DNA from: a virus
Strand: one strand, 5' to 3'
Virus record (IMG/VR): IMGVR_UViG_3300020221_000092
Location: 1 to 28,635 of that record
DNA length: 28,635 nt
Shown here: positions 1-2,768 of the stretch, in pieces
Numbering within the stretch: the first letter of the stretch is position 1
Layout: each line of letters starts with the position of its first letter
Notes under the pieces: model-generated
Database searches by the model: none
What the model saw: the letters and a program-made list of their open reading frames with translations, nothing else
Told to the model about the DNA's origin: nothing
Program-made: the position numbers and the translations under genes

Positions 1-120
1 TTTTTTGCTTATCTTTACACTCAACAAGGAGAGTGGTTATGCTATGATACTTGTCAGTGGCATGATTCTTATCTTGAAAGTGTAGAGATTCCCTCAGGAG
101 AACTTGTCTACTGCTTATAA
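1..120 (+). CDS. C-terminal end of a truncated small unknown protein
   Basis: Frame 1 is open from the window edge to the TAA at 118-120 and gives 39 residues. The piece is rich in aromatic residues (three Phe/Tyr near its start, two Trp) and has three Cys and one His. It ends in ELVYCL. I do not recognise the protein and its start lies outside the window. Its size and composition fit the short conserved ORFs that follow, so it is probably the last gene of an upstream set of small phage ORFs. No function can be assigned. Confidence 0.5.
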   Translation, partial: FFAYLYTQQGEWLCYDTCQWHDSYLESVEIPSGELVYCL

Positions 121-289
121 GATCAAAAAACGTAAAAAAGGTTCTAAAATGTAATAAAATGAATTAAAAATGGCTTTTTTAATTAAGCCTAATGTTTTAG
201 AATCTTGATAATTATCGTGATTATTATGTGATTCTGATACGAATTCGGATCATTTAGCTCCTTATAAATGTGCTGAGTCCTTGTGATCT

Positions 290-303
290 TAGCCTGCAGG
301 CTA
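290..303. repeat. 14-bp perfect palindrome
   Basis: TAGCCTGCAGGCTA equals its own reverse complement over all 14 bases; the symmetry ends at 289/304. It lies about 100 nt upstream of the sigma70-type promoter at 401. A dimeric regulator could bind it, but nothing else shows this. Confidence 0.4.
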
Positions 304-334
304 CCACACAACCGCACAAATGTCAAGTCCCCCG

Positions 335-346
335 AGTATAACCGAA
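335..346 (+). repeat. AGTATAACCGAA motif, copy 1
   Basis: This 12-mer recurs exactly at 626-637. Its 10-base core TATAACCGAA recurs inverted at 1408-1417 and 1476-1485. This copy lies 54 nt upstream of the -35 box of the promoter for the 458 gene. All four copies are intergenic. Confidence 0.55.
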
Positions 347-380
347 TCCCCCCAAAGTCCCTCAAAACATAAGAACCGCT

Positions 381-388
381 CATAAATA
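381..388 (+). promoter_or_regulatory. Possible T4-type late promoter (CATAAATA)
   Basis: CATAAATA matches the T4 late consensus TATAAATA at 7 of 8 bases and lies between genes, 69 nt before the ATG at 458. Such octamers arise often by chance in AT-rich DNA, so the support is only position and orientation. A stronger sigma70-type promoter follows directly. Confidence 0.25.
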
Positions 389-400
389 CTCCCAACCCAC

Positions 401-429
401 TTGACATAAACGCTCCGAGATCTTATAGT
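401..429 (+). promoter_or_regulatory. Sigma70-type (early) promoter
   Basis: TTGACA (401-406) is a perfect -35 box. A 17-nt spacer separates it from TATAGT (424-429), which matches the -10 consensus at 5 of 6. The expected start near 436 gives a leader of about 20 nt to the ATG at 458. T4-like phages use host sigma70-type promoters for early genes. Confidence 0.75.
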
Positions 430-457
430 AGCTCCAGTAACACATTCCTCCAAAGCC

Positions 458-625
458 ATGTCAGTTTCTTATCTTCAAGCCCAGAAAAAGAATGTACGTG
501 TCACGCTGGATCTTTCAGTGTACAATGACTTCGATGCCAGACAGATTGATTGGCGTAAGTTATTCGCACTCGATGGAGATGAGACTGTGGAGGCTTATGT
601 GGAGGATCTCGATGTTGAGTGGTAA
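458..625 (+). CDS. Small acidic protein, 55 aa, unknown function
   Basis: ATG at 458 begins MSVSYLQAQKKN and the frame runs to TAA at 623-625. The N-terminal part carries several Lys/Arg, while the C-terminal half is acidic (DGDETVEAYVEDLDVEW). No membrane segment, signal peptide or known motif is visible. There is no clear Shine-Dalgarno before the ATG, as in several neighbours. The gene follows the sigma70-type promoter at 401-429 closely and so is likely an early gene. Its codon use is less AT-rich than the structural genes (541-600 has 27 G/C of 60). It resembles short ORFs carried by cyanomyoviruses, but I cannot name a family. It is too short to rule out chance on length alone; the promoter and the codon-like composition make it likely. 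Confidence 0.65.
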   Translation: MSVSYLQAQKKNVRVTLDLSVYNDFDARQIDWRKLFALDGDETVEAYVEDLDVEW

Positions 626-637
626 AGTATAACCGAA
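626..637 (+). repeat. AGTATAACCGAA motif, copy 2
   Basis: The copy is identical over 12 bases to that at 335-346 and starts directly after the TAA of the 55-aa gene. It lies 31 nt upstream of the -35 box at 669, so both forward copies precede a sigma70-type promoter. Confidence 0.55.
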
Positions 638-668
638 GACTCATAAGCAACTCTGATGGTTTAGCCCC

Positions 669-697
669 TTGACTCCAGCCCCCTGATACCCTATTAT
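669..697 (+). promoter_or_regulatory. Sigma70-type (early) promoter
   Basis: TTGACT (669-674, 5/6) is followed after exactly 17 nt by TATTAT (692-697, 5/6). The start would fall near 704, just ahead of the ribosome binding site TGAGAGGA (706-713) of the gene at 724. Confidence 0.7.
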
Positions 698-723
698 GGC
701 CATGTTGAGAGGAACACAACTGC

Positions 724-966
724 ATGGCACTCTACACTCAGGCAACCGATCTGCACACCAAACAAACAGTATGGGTGAGCACGAATGTTGTTAAGAATCG
801 TGCACAACTTAATTCACACGGTTCTAACAGCATGAAAGCTGCAGGTGTCGATGGACTTTCTGCCGTTGAACTTGCGGATCTTCATACTGACTATCAGGGG
901 TGGACACATTCAACTCCCCGTTATTACTGCAATCCTAAAGCTTCCCGAGTTTCGTTTGCTGCCTGA
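724..966 (+). CDS. Small protein, 80 aa, unknown function
   Basis: ATG at 724 is preceded by a purine-rich site GAGAGGA ending at 713, with a 10-nt spacer, and by a well-formed sigma70-type promoter. The protein starts MALYTQATDLHTKQTVWVST and is hydrophilic and near neutral. It has His, Asn and Ser patches and a late Trp/Tyr region (GWTHSTPRYYC). No membrane segment or recognised domain is present. It is the first of a likely three-gene transcript: the next ATG is 34 nt after its stop and a third follows at 1252. This is probably an early accessory gene of the phage. I do not recognise a family. Confidence 0.65.
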   Translation: MALYTQATDLHTKQTVWVSTNVVKNRAQLNSHGSNSMKAAGVDGLSAVELADLHTDYQGWTHSTPRYYCNPKASRVSFAA

Positions 967-1000
967 TTCACACTTACTGAACACCTTCTACATTATCATC

Positions 1001-1168
1001 ATGCGTTACATTCCACAAAGCAAGTACACTTTCGAAGAGATCTGTGAACAGTGCTATAATGCTATCAATCGTCCCTCGGTGATAGAATCGGCACTCAAGT
1101 ATGACGAGCATCTTTATAATGAGATTCGTGAGTGTGATGAGTGGTGTAAAGAACTCGTAGCACAGTAG
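1001..1168 (+). CDS. Small four-cysteine protein, 55 aa, unknown function
   Basis: The frame is open from further upstream (an ATG at 845), but that start would overlap most of the 80-aa gene. ATG at 1001 leaves a 34-nt gap and gives a 55-aa product like its neighbours. The protein is acidic and probably helical. It has a CxxC pair (Cys15, Cys18) and a CxxxC pair (Cys45, Cys49). These could bind a metal or form disulfides, but no known zinc-binding family was recognised. There is no Shine-Dalgarno. The bases just before the start, TTCTACATTAT (986-996), recur exactly at the start of the gene at 1252. Confidence 0.6.
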   Translation: MRYIPQSKYTFEEICEQCYNAINRPSVIESALKYDEHLYNEIRECDEWCKELVAQ

Positions 1169-1251
1169 GTTACATTGTCCCAACGGGAATGAGGGGACAT
1201 TAAACATACTCCTTCCCAACCCACAGTTTCTAACACTTTTCTTTCTACATT

Positions 1252-1392
1252 ATGTCTAAGCAAGTTCTTTTCTCCCTGCTGGATCGTGCCAACAATGGCA
1301 ATGAGATTCTGTCGGTGATTGACAGTTTCGCTGCTGAGCTTCAGAGTGAGACTGTCAGTGATAATGGTACTCTGGAGGAGATTCAGTTCTGA
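1252..1392 (+). CDS. Small acidic protein, 46 aa, unknown function
   Basis: ATG at 1252 begins MSKQVLFSLLDRANNG and the frame ends with TGA at 1390-1392. The sequence looks like one amphipathic helix (VLFSLLDRANNGNEILSVID) followed by an acidic tail ending TLEEIQF. This layout is common among short ORFs of cyanomyoviruses, but no function is known to me. The gap from the previous gene is 83 nt and holds no good promoter, so it is probably co-transcribed from 669. The start overlaps an 11-base repeat, TTCTACATTAT (1243-1253), also present before the 1001 gene. A hairpin at 1401 follows its stop and may end the transcript. Confidence 0.6.
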   Translation: MSKQVLFSLLDRANNGNEILSVIDSFAAELQSETVSDNGTLEEIQF

Positions 1393-1400
1393 TGTAGCTT

Positions 1401-1436
1401 GGGGTGCTTCGGTTATACGTGGCACCCCTCTTATTC
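1401..1436 (+). terminator. Possible terminator hairpin after the early cassette
   Basis: GGGGTGC (1401-1407) pairs perfectly with GCACCCC (1422-1428) around a 14-nt loop. The tail TCTTATTCGTTT (1429-1440) is T-rich but not a clean T-run. The position, 8 nt after the stop of the 46-aa gene, suits a terminator. The loop holds copy 3 of the TATAACCGAA motif in inverted form. Confidence 0.4.
1408..1418 (-). repeat. TATAACCGAA motif, copy 3 (inverted)
   Basis: TTCGGTTATAC is the exact reverse complement of GTATAACCGAA found at 336-346 and 627-637. It occupies most of the loop of the 1401-1428 hairpin. Confidence 0.55.
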
Positions 1437-1471
1437 GTTTCAGCAGTTATTCGTGATCGGCAGTGTTTGTG

Positions 1472-1532
1472 GCGGTTCGGTTATAACGTCGGCGGGCGTA
1501 GCGGGGGTTATAAGCGTATAAGGGCGAACCGC
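1472..1532. other. GC-rich structured non-coding element
   Basis: GCGGTTCG (1472-1479) pairs perfectly with CGAACCGC (1525-1532) across a 45-nt loop. The loop has GGTTATAA twice (1480-1487, 1506-1513) and GTATAAGG once (1517-1524). The stretch 1441-1500 is 33 G/C of 60, the richest line I counted. There is no T-run after the stem, and no tRNA fold or anticodon arm could be drawn. It could be a structured RNA or a protein-binding DNA site. It contains copy 4 of the motif. Confidence 0.4.
1476..1486 (-). repeat. TATAACCGAA motif, copy 4 (inverted)
   Basis: TTCGGTTATAA carries the inverted 10-base core. Its first four bases are part of the 8-bp stem of the GC-rich element at 1472-1532. Confidence 0.5.
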
Positions 1533-1619
1533 GTTCTAAAAAAGGCAAACTACCCTAACCTACAGAGGTGACAATCCGAGCGACTTATATTCATCTCAAA
1601 AAAATTTCCGGAGGAAAAA

Positions 1620-1760
1620 ATGCGAAGAAAACCCCCCTACTGGAATTTCTGGAAAGTTGTGCTTGCTGGATGGTTAATTAGATATCCAAAGACATTTTTT
1701 TCTGCGGGTTTCACGATTCTTGGGTTTCTTCTAGTGATGCTATATAATGCGTTGAGTTAA
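1620..1760 (+). CDS. Small single-pass membrane protein, 46 aa
   Basis: ATG at 1620 has an excellent ribosome binding site, GGAGG at 1610-1614 with a 5-nt spacer. The product begins MRRKPPYWNFWKVVLAG and has a basic, Pro- and Trp-rich N-terminus. A hydrophobic stretch follows at about residues 26-45 (TFFSAGFTILGFLLVMLYNA), likely one transmembrane helix. By the positive-inside rule the N-terminus would face the cytoplasm. Its function is unknown. Short membrane peptides like this occur in many cyanomyoviruses and could act at the host membrane, which is inference. The final codons overlap a promoter-like sequence for the next gene, 9 nt downstream. Confidence 0.7.
   Translation: MRRKPPYWNFWKVVLAGWLIRYPKTFFSAGFTILGFLLVMLYNALS
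1720..1748 (+). promoter_or_regulatory. Possible sigma70-type promoter inside the membrane-protein gene
   Basis: A perfect TATAAT (1743-1748) lies 17 nt after TTGGGT (1720-1725), which matches the -35 consensus only in its first three bases. It would start transcription about 15 nt before the GTG at 1770. It is embedded in coding sequence, so chance is possible. Confidence 0.4.
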
Positions 1761-1769
1761 AAAAATTTC

Positions 1770-1952
1770 GTGGAAAAAATTTACCATATCTATGCTCGTG
1801 GTACATGCATCTATCATTCTCTAAAAGAAGAAGAATTTAAGTTGGCTTGGATTGCATTAAACCGTCTTGCGGATCTGGTAGCAGACAAATCAGAACTATC
1901 CTATGAAGAACTGATTGTAGATAAAAAGATTATACTTAATTCGTCCCATTGA
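1770..1952 (+). CDS. Small conserved protein, 60 aa (paralogue of the 2746 gene product)
   Basis: The frame has a stop at 1758-1760 and its first usable start is GTG at 1770, which places EKIYHIYARG at the N-terminus. No ribosome binding site is visible. The first 25 residues look like a short beta hairpin (YHIYARGTCIYHSL) followed by helices. The pattern aligns with the product of the gene at 2746: I-x3-G-x2-IY-x-SL-x2-E is shared. Proteins of this form are frequent in cyanomyoviruses, and their role is unknown to me. The gene overlaps the next promoter: the TGA stop at 1950-1952 lies inside the TTGACA box at 1949-1954. Confidence 0.65.
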   Translation: MEKIYHIYARGTCIYHSLKEEEFKLAWIALNRLADLVADKSELSYEELIVDKKIILNSSH

Positions 1953-1977
1953 CAAATTCTAAATAAACTGATAAAAT
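1949..1977 (+). promoter_or_regulatory. Sigma70-type promoter for the glycosyltransferase gene
   Basis: A perfect TTGACA (1949-1954) is followed after 17 nt by TAAAAT (1972-1977, 5/6). The start would be near 1984, about 17 nt before the ATG at 2001. The -35 box contains the stop codon of the preceding gene. Confidence 0.7.
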
Positions 1978-2000
1978 TGATCTGAAGGTTATTTTTTCTT

Positions 2001-2768
2001 ATGGCAAAAGGATTTACGGTAAAGGCAAAAACTCCCCAGGTTCAGAAAGAAGAGTGGGATTATGTTGCAATTAAAGAAAGAATGAAAGGTAAGTCAATCG
2101 TCTTCTGTCTTCCTGGAAGAGGTTGTTCTTTTACTTTTCTCAAAGCATTTGTACAACTATGCTTTGATATGGTACAGAATGGTATGAGTATTCAGATTTC
2201 TCAGGATTACTCTTCCATGGTAAACTTTGCACGTTGTAAGTGTCTTGGTGCAAATGTTCTTCGTGGGCCTAAGCAAATTCCTTGGGATGGTAAACTGCAA
2301 TATGATTATCAACTCTGGATTGACAGTGACATTGTATTCAACTCAGAAAAGTTCTGGCAACTCTGTGATCTTGCTCTGAATGCAGAAGGAGAGGAGAAGG
2401 AGATTGTTGCTGGTTGGTACGCAACAGAAGATGGACACACAACCTCAGTGGCTCACTGGTTGGAAGAAGATGATTTTCGCCGCAATGGTGGTGTGATGAA
2501 TCACGAAAATGTGGAGGGTATCTCGAAACGTCGTAAGCCTTTCACAGTGGATTACACGGGATTTGGTTGGGTTCTGATTAAGAAAGGAGTCTTTGAAAAT
2601 CTTGAATATCCTTGGTTTGCTCCAAAGATGCAAGTCTTTGAGTCCGGTGCGGTTCAGGATATGTGTGGAGAAGACGTTTCATTCTGTCTCGATGCCAAGG
2701 ATGCTGGTTTTGAGATCTGGTGCGATCCGAGGATTCGTGTGGGACATGAAAAAACCAGAGTCATCTAA
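2001..2768 (+). CDS. Putative glycosyltransferase, GT-A-like fold
   Basis: The 255-residue product begins MAKGFTVKAKTPQVQKEEWD. It has a beta-strand-loop start typical of nucleotide-sugar enzymes (KSIVFCLPGRG, residues 31-41) and a WIDSD motif (106-110), a D-x-D metal/sugar-nucleotide site. A late CGED motif (222-225) resembles the acidic residues that hold the acceptor or base in GT-A enzymes. It closes with VGHEK (247-251), a His often near the metal site. No membrane segment is present. Substrate and target are unknown; glycosylation of phage DNA, a virion protein or host surface sugar are options I cannot separate. ATG at 2001 has GAAGG at 1984-1988, rather far upstream. The gene has its own sigma70-type promoter and overlaps the next gene by 23 nt. 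Its length is compact for the family but appears complete. Confidence 0.7.
   Translation: MAKGFTVKAKTPQVQKEEWDYVAIKERMKGKSIVFCLPGRGCSFTFLKAFVQLCFDMVQNGMSIQISQDYSSMVNFARCKCLGANVLRGPKQIPWDGKLQYDYQLWIDSDIVFNSEKFWQLCDLALNAEGEEKEIVAGWYATEDGHTTSVAHWLEEDDFRRNGGVMNHENVEGISKRRKPFTVDYTGFGWVLIKKGVFENLEYPWFAPKMQVFESGAVQDMCGEDVSFCLDAKDAGFEIWCDPRIRVGHEKTRVI

Follow-up and report, generated by a model that had tools for sequence, protein, structure and literature searches.

The window analysed here is a stretch of 28,635 bases of viral DNA, a fragment recorded in IMG/VR. Its left part holds four short genes on the + strand upstream of a conserved noncoding element, and its right part a glycosyltransferase-like gene (2001-2768) followed by the large genes purM, gp25, gp6 and gp7, ordered by comparison with S-SM2. 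On this comparison the window can be assigned to a T4-like cyanophage (Kyanoviridae). The first of the short genes, P0001 (458-625), encodes a 55-aa early protein of phrog_12516, a group of unknown function, and the last, P0004 (1252-1392), encodes a 46-aa protein whose place immediately before the element is kept across the family; most family members have P0001 and P0004 together with the element. The genes between them, P0002 (724-966; 80 aa) and P0003 (1001-1168; 55 aa), constitute variable cargo. Most close relatives lack P0002 at this position, L056 carries another ORF together with P0003, and most of the loci L053-L068 have no cargo in the position corresponding to 626-1251, a segment that is a putative gene-exchange hot spot. 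Two short ORFs of 46 and 60 aa, the second of which matches phrog_2626, occupy 1620-1952, after the element and before the glycosyltransferase-like gene.

Upstream of P0001, an early sigma70 promoter (TTGACA-17-TATAGT; 401-429, +) is kept in relatives, and it is preceded by ATAAATA (382-388, +), a sequence resembling a T4 late promoter and conserved in relatives as GATAAATACT. A second early promoter (TTGACT-17-TATTAT; 669-697, +) follows P0001. On the opposite strand, a leftward sigma70-type promoter block (281-333, -) comprises a TTGACA -35 hexamer (321-326), a 17-nt spacer, a TAGCCT -10 hexamer (298-303) and the start region GGCTAAGATCACAA; its -35 is intact and its -10 is weaker than in relatives. 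Homologues of the block were found in S-SM2 (-715), SynMITS9220M01 (-693), L156, L105 and L076, and in the subset of loci that carry it the block lies farther upstream than the core-proximal promoters described below and has a conserved start region (GTGATCTT, + strand). Facing away from the P0001 promoter, the block would direct transcription of an antisense or small RNA leftward of the early genes.

The initial annotation of this DNA had drawn attention to four copies of a short word around the early genes. We confirmed the ten-letter word TATAACCGAA at all four sites, 337-346 (+), 628-637 (+), 1408-1417 (-) and 1476-1485 (-), and found no other copy in the 28,635 bases; its 12-letter extension AGTATAACCGAA is likewise exact at 335-346 and 626-637. 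All four copies fall outside plausible genes, as had been stated, and the sigma70-like sites reported downstream of the forward copies begin 54 nt (401) and 31 nt (669) past them. Copy 1 (335-346, +) sits between divergent promoters, 10 nt behind the -35 of the leftward block, and copy 2 (626-637, +) comes immediately past the P0001 stop, where relatives have GAGTATAACC and then diverge. The reverse copies had both been placed in hairpin DNA. This holds for copy 3 (1408-1417, -; TGCGGTTATNCGT in relatives), which occupies the loop of an 8-bp hairpin at 1401-1428, but the hairpin at copy 4 (1476-1485, -; CGGTTATAACG, with CGGTT invariant in the family) is weaker. Dinucleotide shuffles of the window predict 0.07 copies of the word against the four found. 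The word having been chosen post hoc, we scanned every 10-mer in the window to allow for word choice, and TATAACCGAA was the only one with four copies within 1.2 kb; in a look-elsewhere test, one of 60 shuffled windows held some 10-mer four times in 1.2 kb (p~0.02 after selection). The earlier judgement that the four copies are unlikely by chance is thus upheld, but they are not overwhelmingly so.

All four exact copies are kept in two near-identical contigs (L007 and L008/L052), and two of them in L056. Copy 1 is exact solely in these contigs and degenerate in other relatives. Absence of the word from the same places in close relatives had been named in advance as evidence against it, and the exact word is in fact missing at copies 1 and 2 from most relatives whose P0001 is 89-96% identical, which counts against the exact spelling. 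Its role as a general cyanophage signal is ruled out by a count of just one copy in 11 complete cyanophage genomes (~2.1 Mb). The degenerate form ATAACCG[AC]A, counted in 14 family members, reaches 1.49 per kb upstream of the conserved core described below against 0.012 per kb downstream of it (>100-fold), and is oriented + upstream of the element and - within it, save for a one-site exception in L059 and L068. The proposal of a regulator binding site is therefore plausible in view of this enrichment, but the exact 10-mer is no general phage or host operator. The four-copy word is a real lineage-specific repeat of recent exact spelling, and it is a local detail within a larger conserved noncoding region.

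It is conceivable, but in our estimation rather unlikely, that the four 10-mers by themselves are operators of a lineage-specific phage regulator with no tie to replication. The sharing of the word with the near-identical contigs, the degenerate copies beside family promoters and the look-elsewhere probability of ~0.02 all favour such operators, yet copies 1 and 2 are not exact in most relatives, and the reverse copies are part of a conserved element that is under other constraints. The word may also act as an operator inside an origin, so that the confidence we attach to the several explanations is not mutually exclusive.

The larger region is a GC-rich noncoding element found downstream of P0004 in every family member examined. 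In the window it spans 1395-1590, with an alignment and a step in strand composition as evidence, and we propose it as the rightward half of an origin. Its left end is the hairpin at 1401-1428 (+), which is replaced by a hairpin of other sequence in relatives and in many of them lies just past a sigma70 -10. There follow several GTTAT[TA]CGT-like words, CGGTTAT and an A-rich tract, with a G-rich stretch ahead of the latter, and the element ends in the conserved noncoding site CCCTAACCTACAGAGGTGACAA (1553-1574, +), which contains the core CCTAACCTACA at 1554-1564. Copies 3 and 4 of TATAACCGAA are two of these GTTAT[TA]CGT-like/CGGTTAT words, and related words (TTATTCGT; 1431-1454, +) stand at 1431 and 1447. 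Rfam covariance models gave no credible match in window positions 1-2200, and a literature search by sequence returned no match.

The core is near-universal in T4-like cyanophages and normally occurs once per genome. Searches with blastn found the terminal sequence of the element at 287 places in 286 phage records, and a second query found it in 325 records; in IMG/VR it is present in at least 120 stretches. Comparison across genera defines the core as CCTAACCTACA, often inside ACTACCCTAACCTACAAAGG. The relatives of the window keep it, and it was found in nearly every cyanobacterial T4-like virus examined, freshwater and marine. Loci L092-L211 were fetched by the core sequence, and the invariance of the core among them is not independent evidence, as that among the named phages is. 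All but three of the 26 complete genomes contain a single perfect core: Syn30 has two, S-RIM44 has a one-base variant, and S-E7 has an extra site besides one that appears at both ends of the record. The core sits where the small, variable early genes give way to the baseplate module.

The surroundings of the core are also marked by the 9-mer TTTTCCACA, the established cyanobacterial DnaA box (PMC4674748). The 26 complete genomes contain 115 boxes in all, of which 54 are no more than 2 kb from the core, where 2.5 would be expected. The first 13 genomes, used as a discovery set, contributed 20 of 42 boxes (expected 0.9), and a held-out set of 13 genomes fetched later contributed 34 of 73 (expected 1.6). 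In most complete genomes boxes cluster inside these 2 kb, mostly on the upstream side, and at 183 distinct loci the 221 kb upstream of the core hold 115 boxes and the 765 kb downstream hold 5, a 72-fold enrichment; many of the box loci are related, so that these counts are not independent events and their p-values overstate independence. By comparison, the best of 300 letter-permuted 9-mers used as a control reached 15-fold upstream enrichment, with a median of 0.6, and an unbiased 9-mer scan of 91 sequence clusters placed TTTTCCACA among the leading words, with repeated occurrences (58 copies in 24 clusters, expected 1.1). Spacings between boxes on the same strand are 11-12, 20-22, 42 and 53 bp, with one outlier of 46, and are helix-phased (R=0.86 at 10.5 bp). 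L156 and L105 have seven or eight boxes crowded into the 450 bp immediately before the core, while S-RIM44 and S-CAM1 instead carry clusters of three and two boxes, respectively, 12 bp apart, at ~-3.4 and ~-3.7 kb. Seven of the 26 complete genomes, P-SSM2, P-SSM4 and Bellamy among them, are free of boxes to a distance of 2 kb from the core, and TTTTCCACA is also missing from the neighbourhood of the core in the window and its closest relatives, where one-mismatch boxes occur at chance level.

Promoters accompany the core as well. At 86 of 168 loci (13 after shuffling) the core is preceded by a near-consensus sigma70 promoter, in most cases at a distance of 65-145 b, as would suit T4-type origins, into which an early or middle promoter transcribes. 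In the window, only the promoters that start at 401 and 669 are intact, and the promoter immediately before the element is degenerate. The + strand has a step in GC skew at the element, from ~0 to +0.13 to +0.2, and gene content changes there too; over whole genomes the skew has no clean sign switch at the core, only the local step. The hairpin at 1401-1428 is followed by TCTTATTC and no T-run, and the window thus has no intrinsic terminator at this place. A hairpin with a T-run does lie just upstream of the element in P-SSM4 (L213), S-SSM4 (L220) and S-SCSM1 (L217). Directly before this terminator-like hairpin, P-SSM4 and S-SSM4 have a strong sigma70 promoter, an arrangement whose transcript would be very short and might serve as a primer.

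Taken together with the late-promoter-like TATAAATA that is found downstream of the core in several relatives, these signals would also suit a transcription boundary, in which early transcripts terminate at the hairpin, transcription resumes from the early and late promoters, and the late transcript contains the core as a conserved leader or processing site. The site is indeed the border between early and late genes, and in many genomes the hairpin stands right behind a sigma70 -10, with a T-run in the three phages just named. We nevertheless regard this explanation as unlikely, given that the hairpin of the window has no T-run, that the predicted RNA fold of the element is no better than that of shuffled sequences (z=0.16) and that the clustering of DnaA boxes is left unexplained.

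DnaA boxes can also serve as decoys or operators. The cyanophage boxes might titrate host DnaA and thereby halt host replication, or allow DnaA to control early phage genes, the core then being a separate matter. Such roles would agree with the variable number of boxes, with their position among early promoters and with their being missing near the core in some genomes that keep it. A decoy has no need to adjoin one near-universal, single-copy site, however, as nearly half of the boxes genome-wide do, and the 2-8 copies seen would be low for titration, which makes this alternative distinctly unlikely.

Very improbable, in our assessment, is a packaging (pac) function, in which terminase would start headful packaging at the core. 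A near-universal, single-copy sequence would be apt for this purpose, and among IMG/VR contigs of at least ~15 kb that contain the core, 19 of 49 have an end in the 2 kb upstream of it, where 3.6 would be expected, and the 5 kb downstream contain no contig end. The S-E7 record (MH920640.1) starts 110 b before the core and has it a second time at its end (111 and 177606), which suggests terminal redundancy or an assembly break. The contig ends, however, are scattered over the variable early region and do not converge on a single base, a pattern that breaks in the assembly of hypervariable DNA would also produce; they are probably such breaks and possibly packaging ends. Packaging would, besides, leave the DnaA boxes and the promoters unexplained. 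Finally, the earlier suggestion that the 10-mers are terminal inverted repeats bordering a transferable cassette can hardly be credited and is not borne out by the gene order of relatives: the copies are inverted around genes and the genes intervening between P0001 and P0004 are swapped among relatives, but the swapped segment sits inside the copies and not at them, P0001 and P0004 are fixed and co-occur with the element in most family members, and nothing resembling a recombinase, transposase or target duplication was seen nearby.

On balance, and if only just, we think it probable that the cis-acting region of the window is the replication origin of T4-like cyanophages (Kyanoviridae). A near-universal single-copy core, helix-phased DnaA boxes, early promoters and a skew step together fit an origin better than any rival considered; because the lineage of the window has no DnaA box near the core, the origin reading there draws on positional homology, the core and the promoters. 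The best reading of the sequence is of a region that would be part T4-oriE-like and part DnaA-box origin, with TATAACCGAA as a lineage-specific repeat inside it. At such an origin, host DnaA would bind the boxes and open the DNA, early transcripts from the promoters would stay in place as RNA-DNA hybrids that prime forks in the manner of T4 oriF, and the core CCTAACCTACA would be recognised by a phage protein. We put forward more tentatively, as a possibility that falls somewhat short of probable, that a shared cyanophage origin uses host DnaA by means of phage-borne boxes and a phage core, and that some lineages, including that of the window, have swapped the boxes for repeats of their own. 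In the box-less lineage, the ATAACCG[AC]A words may be iterons bound in place of DnaA boxes, and the origin would in that case be closer to T4 oriE.

In a review of T4 replication, oriF and oriG are described as a promoter plus an unwinding element primed by an R-loop, and oriE as dependent on an early promoter and provided with iterons; several T4 origins fall at compositional shifts, and no local sequence motif is common to all of them (PMC3016281). The cyanophage region is like oriE (an early promoter and 12-nt iterons, near repEA), oriF and oriG in belonging to a T4-like phage and in combining an early promoter, repeated short words and a shift in strand composition (PMC3016281). It differs from these origins in being a single candidate site with a near-universal core across the family. 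A further difference lies in the host DnaA boxes carried by cyanophages, which the consulted passages of the review do not mention at T4 origins, and, in contrast to the evenly spaced iterons of oriE, the GTTAT words of the window are unevenly spaced. The oriC regions of Synechococcus PCC 7942, Anabaena 7120 and Cyanothece 51142 contain the same TTTTCCACA 9-mer in several copies and both orientations (PMC4674748). An oriC-like cluster of boxes is found in the relatives (the 54 of 115 boxes in 26 genomes) and not in the window, and the cyanophage boxes differ from oriC in that they belong to lytic phages, have neither dnaA nor dnaN annotated alongside and are accompanied by a phage-specific core. 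In plasmid and phage-plasmid origins of the P1 oriR type, DnaA boxes are mixed with other repeated words. The cyanophage region shares this mixture of boxes and repeats, but no replication-initiator gene was recognised beside it.

In a literature search conducted largely outside the subscription journals, we found neither an account of a replication origin in T4-like cyanophages nor one of DnaA boxes on cyanophage genomes. If the proposed reading is correct, an origin of the T4 family would be coupled to the replication initiator of the host at one mapped place across the family, and phage DNA synthesis would be tied to host DnaA and possibly to the host cell cycle. It would also provide one site per genome that could be tested in hundreds of sequenced phages, as well as a single-copy family marker for metagenomes.

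Two minor observations concern the distribution of these sequences. The core had no match in cyanobacterial host records, and the search of host genomes returned three matches (L286, L287 and L288), none of them titled as a cyanobacterium. L286 and L288 are public MAG contigs, titled Woesearchaeota and Euryarchaeota, that encode proteins resembling the cyanophage baseplate region; they are probably cyanophage contigs misbinned into archaeal genomes, and the match in L287 is perhaps due to chance. Lastly, the S-RIM2/S-RIM8-like genomes L276, L277, L279, L284, L274, L275, L282, L285 and L218 share an inverted pair of DnaA boxes with a conserved spacing of exactly 23 bp.
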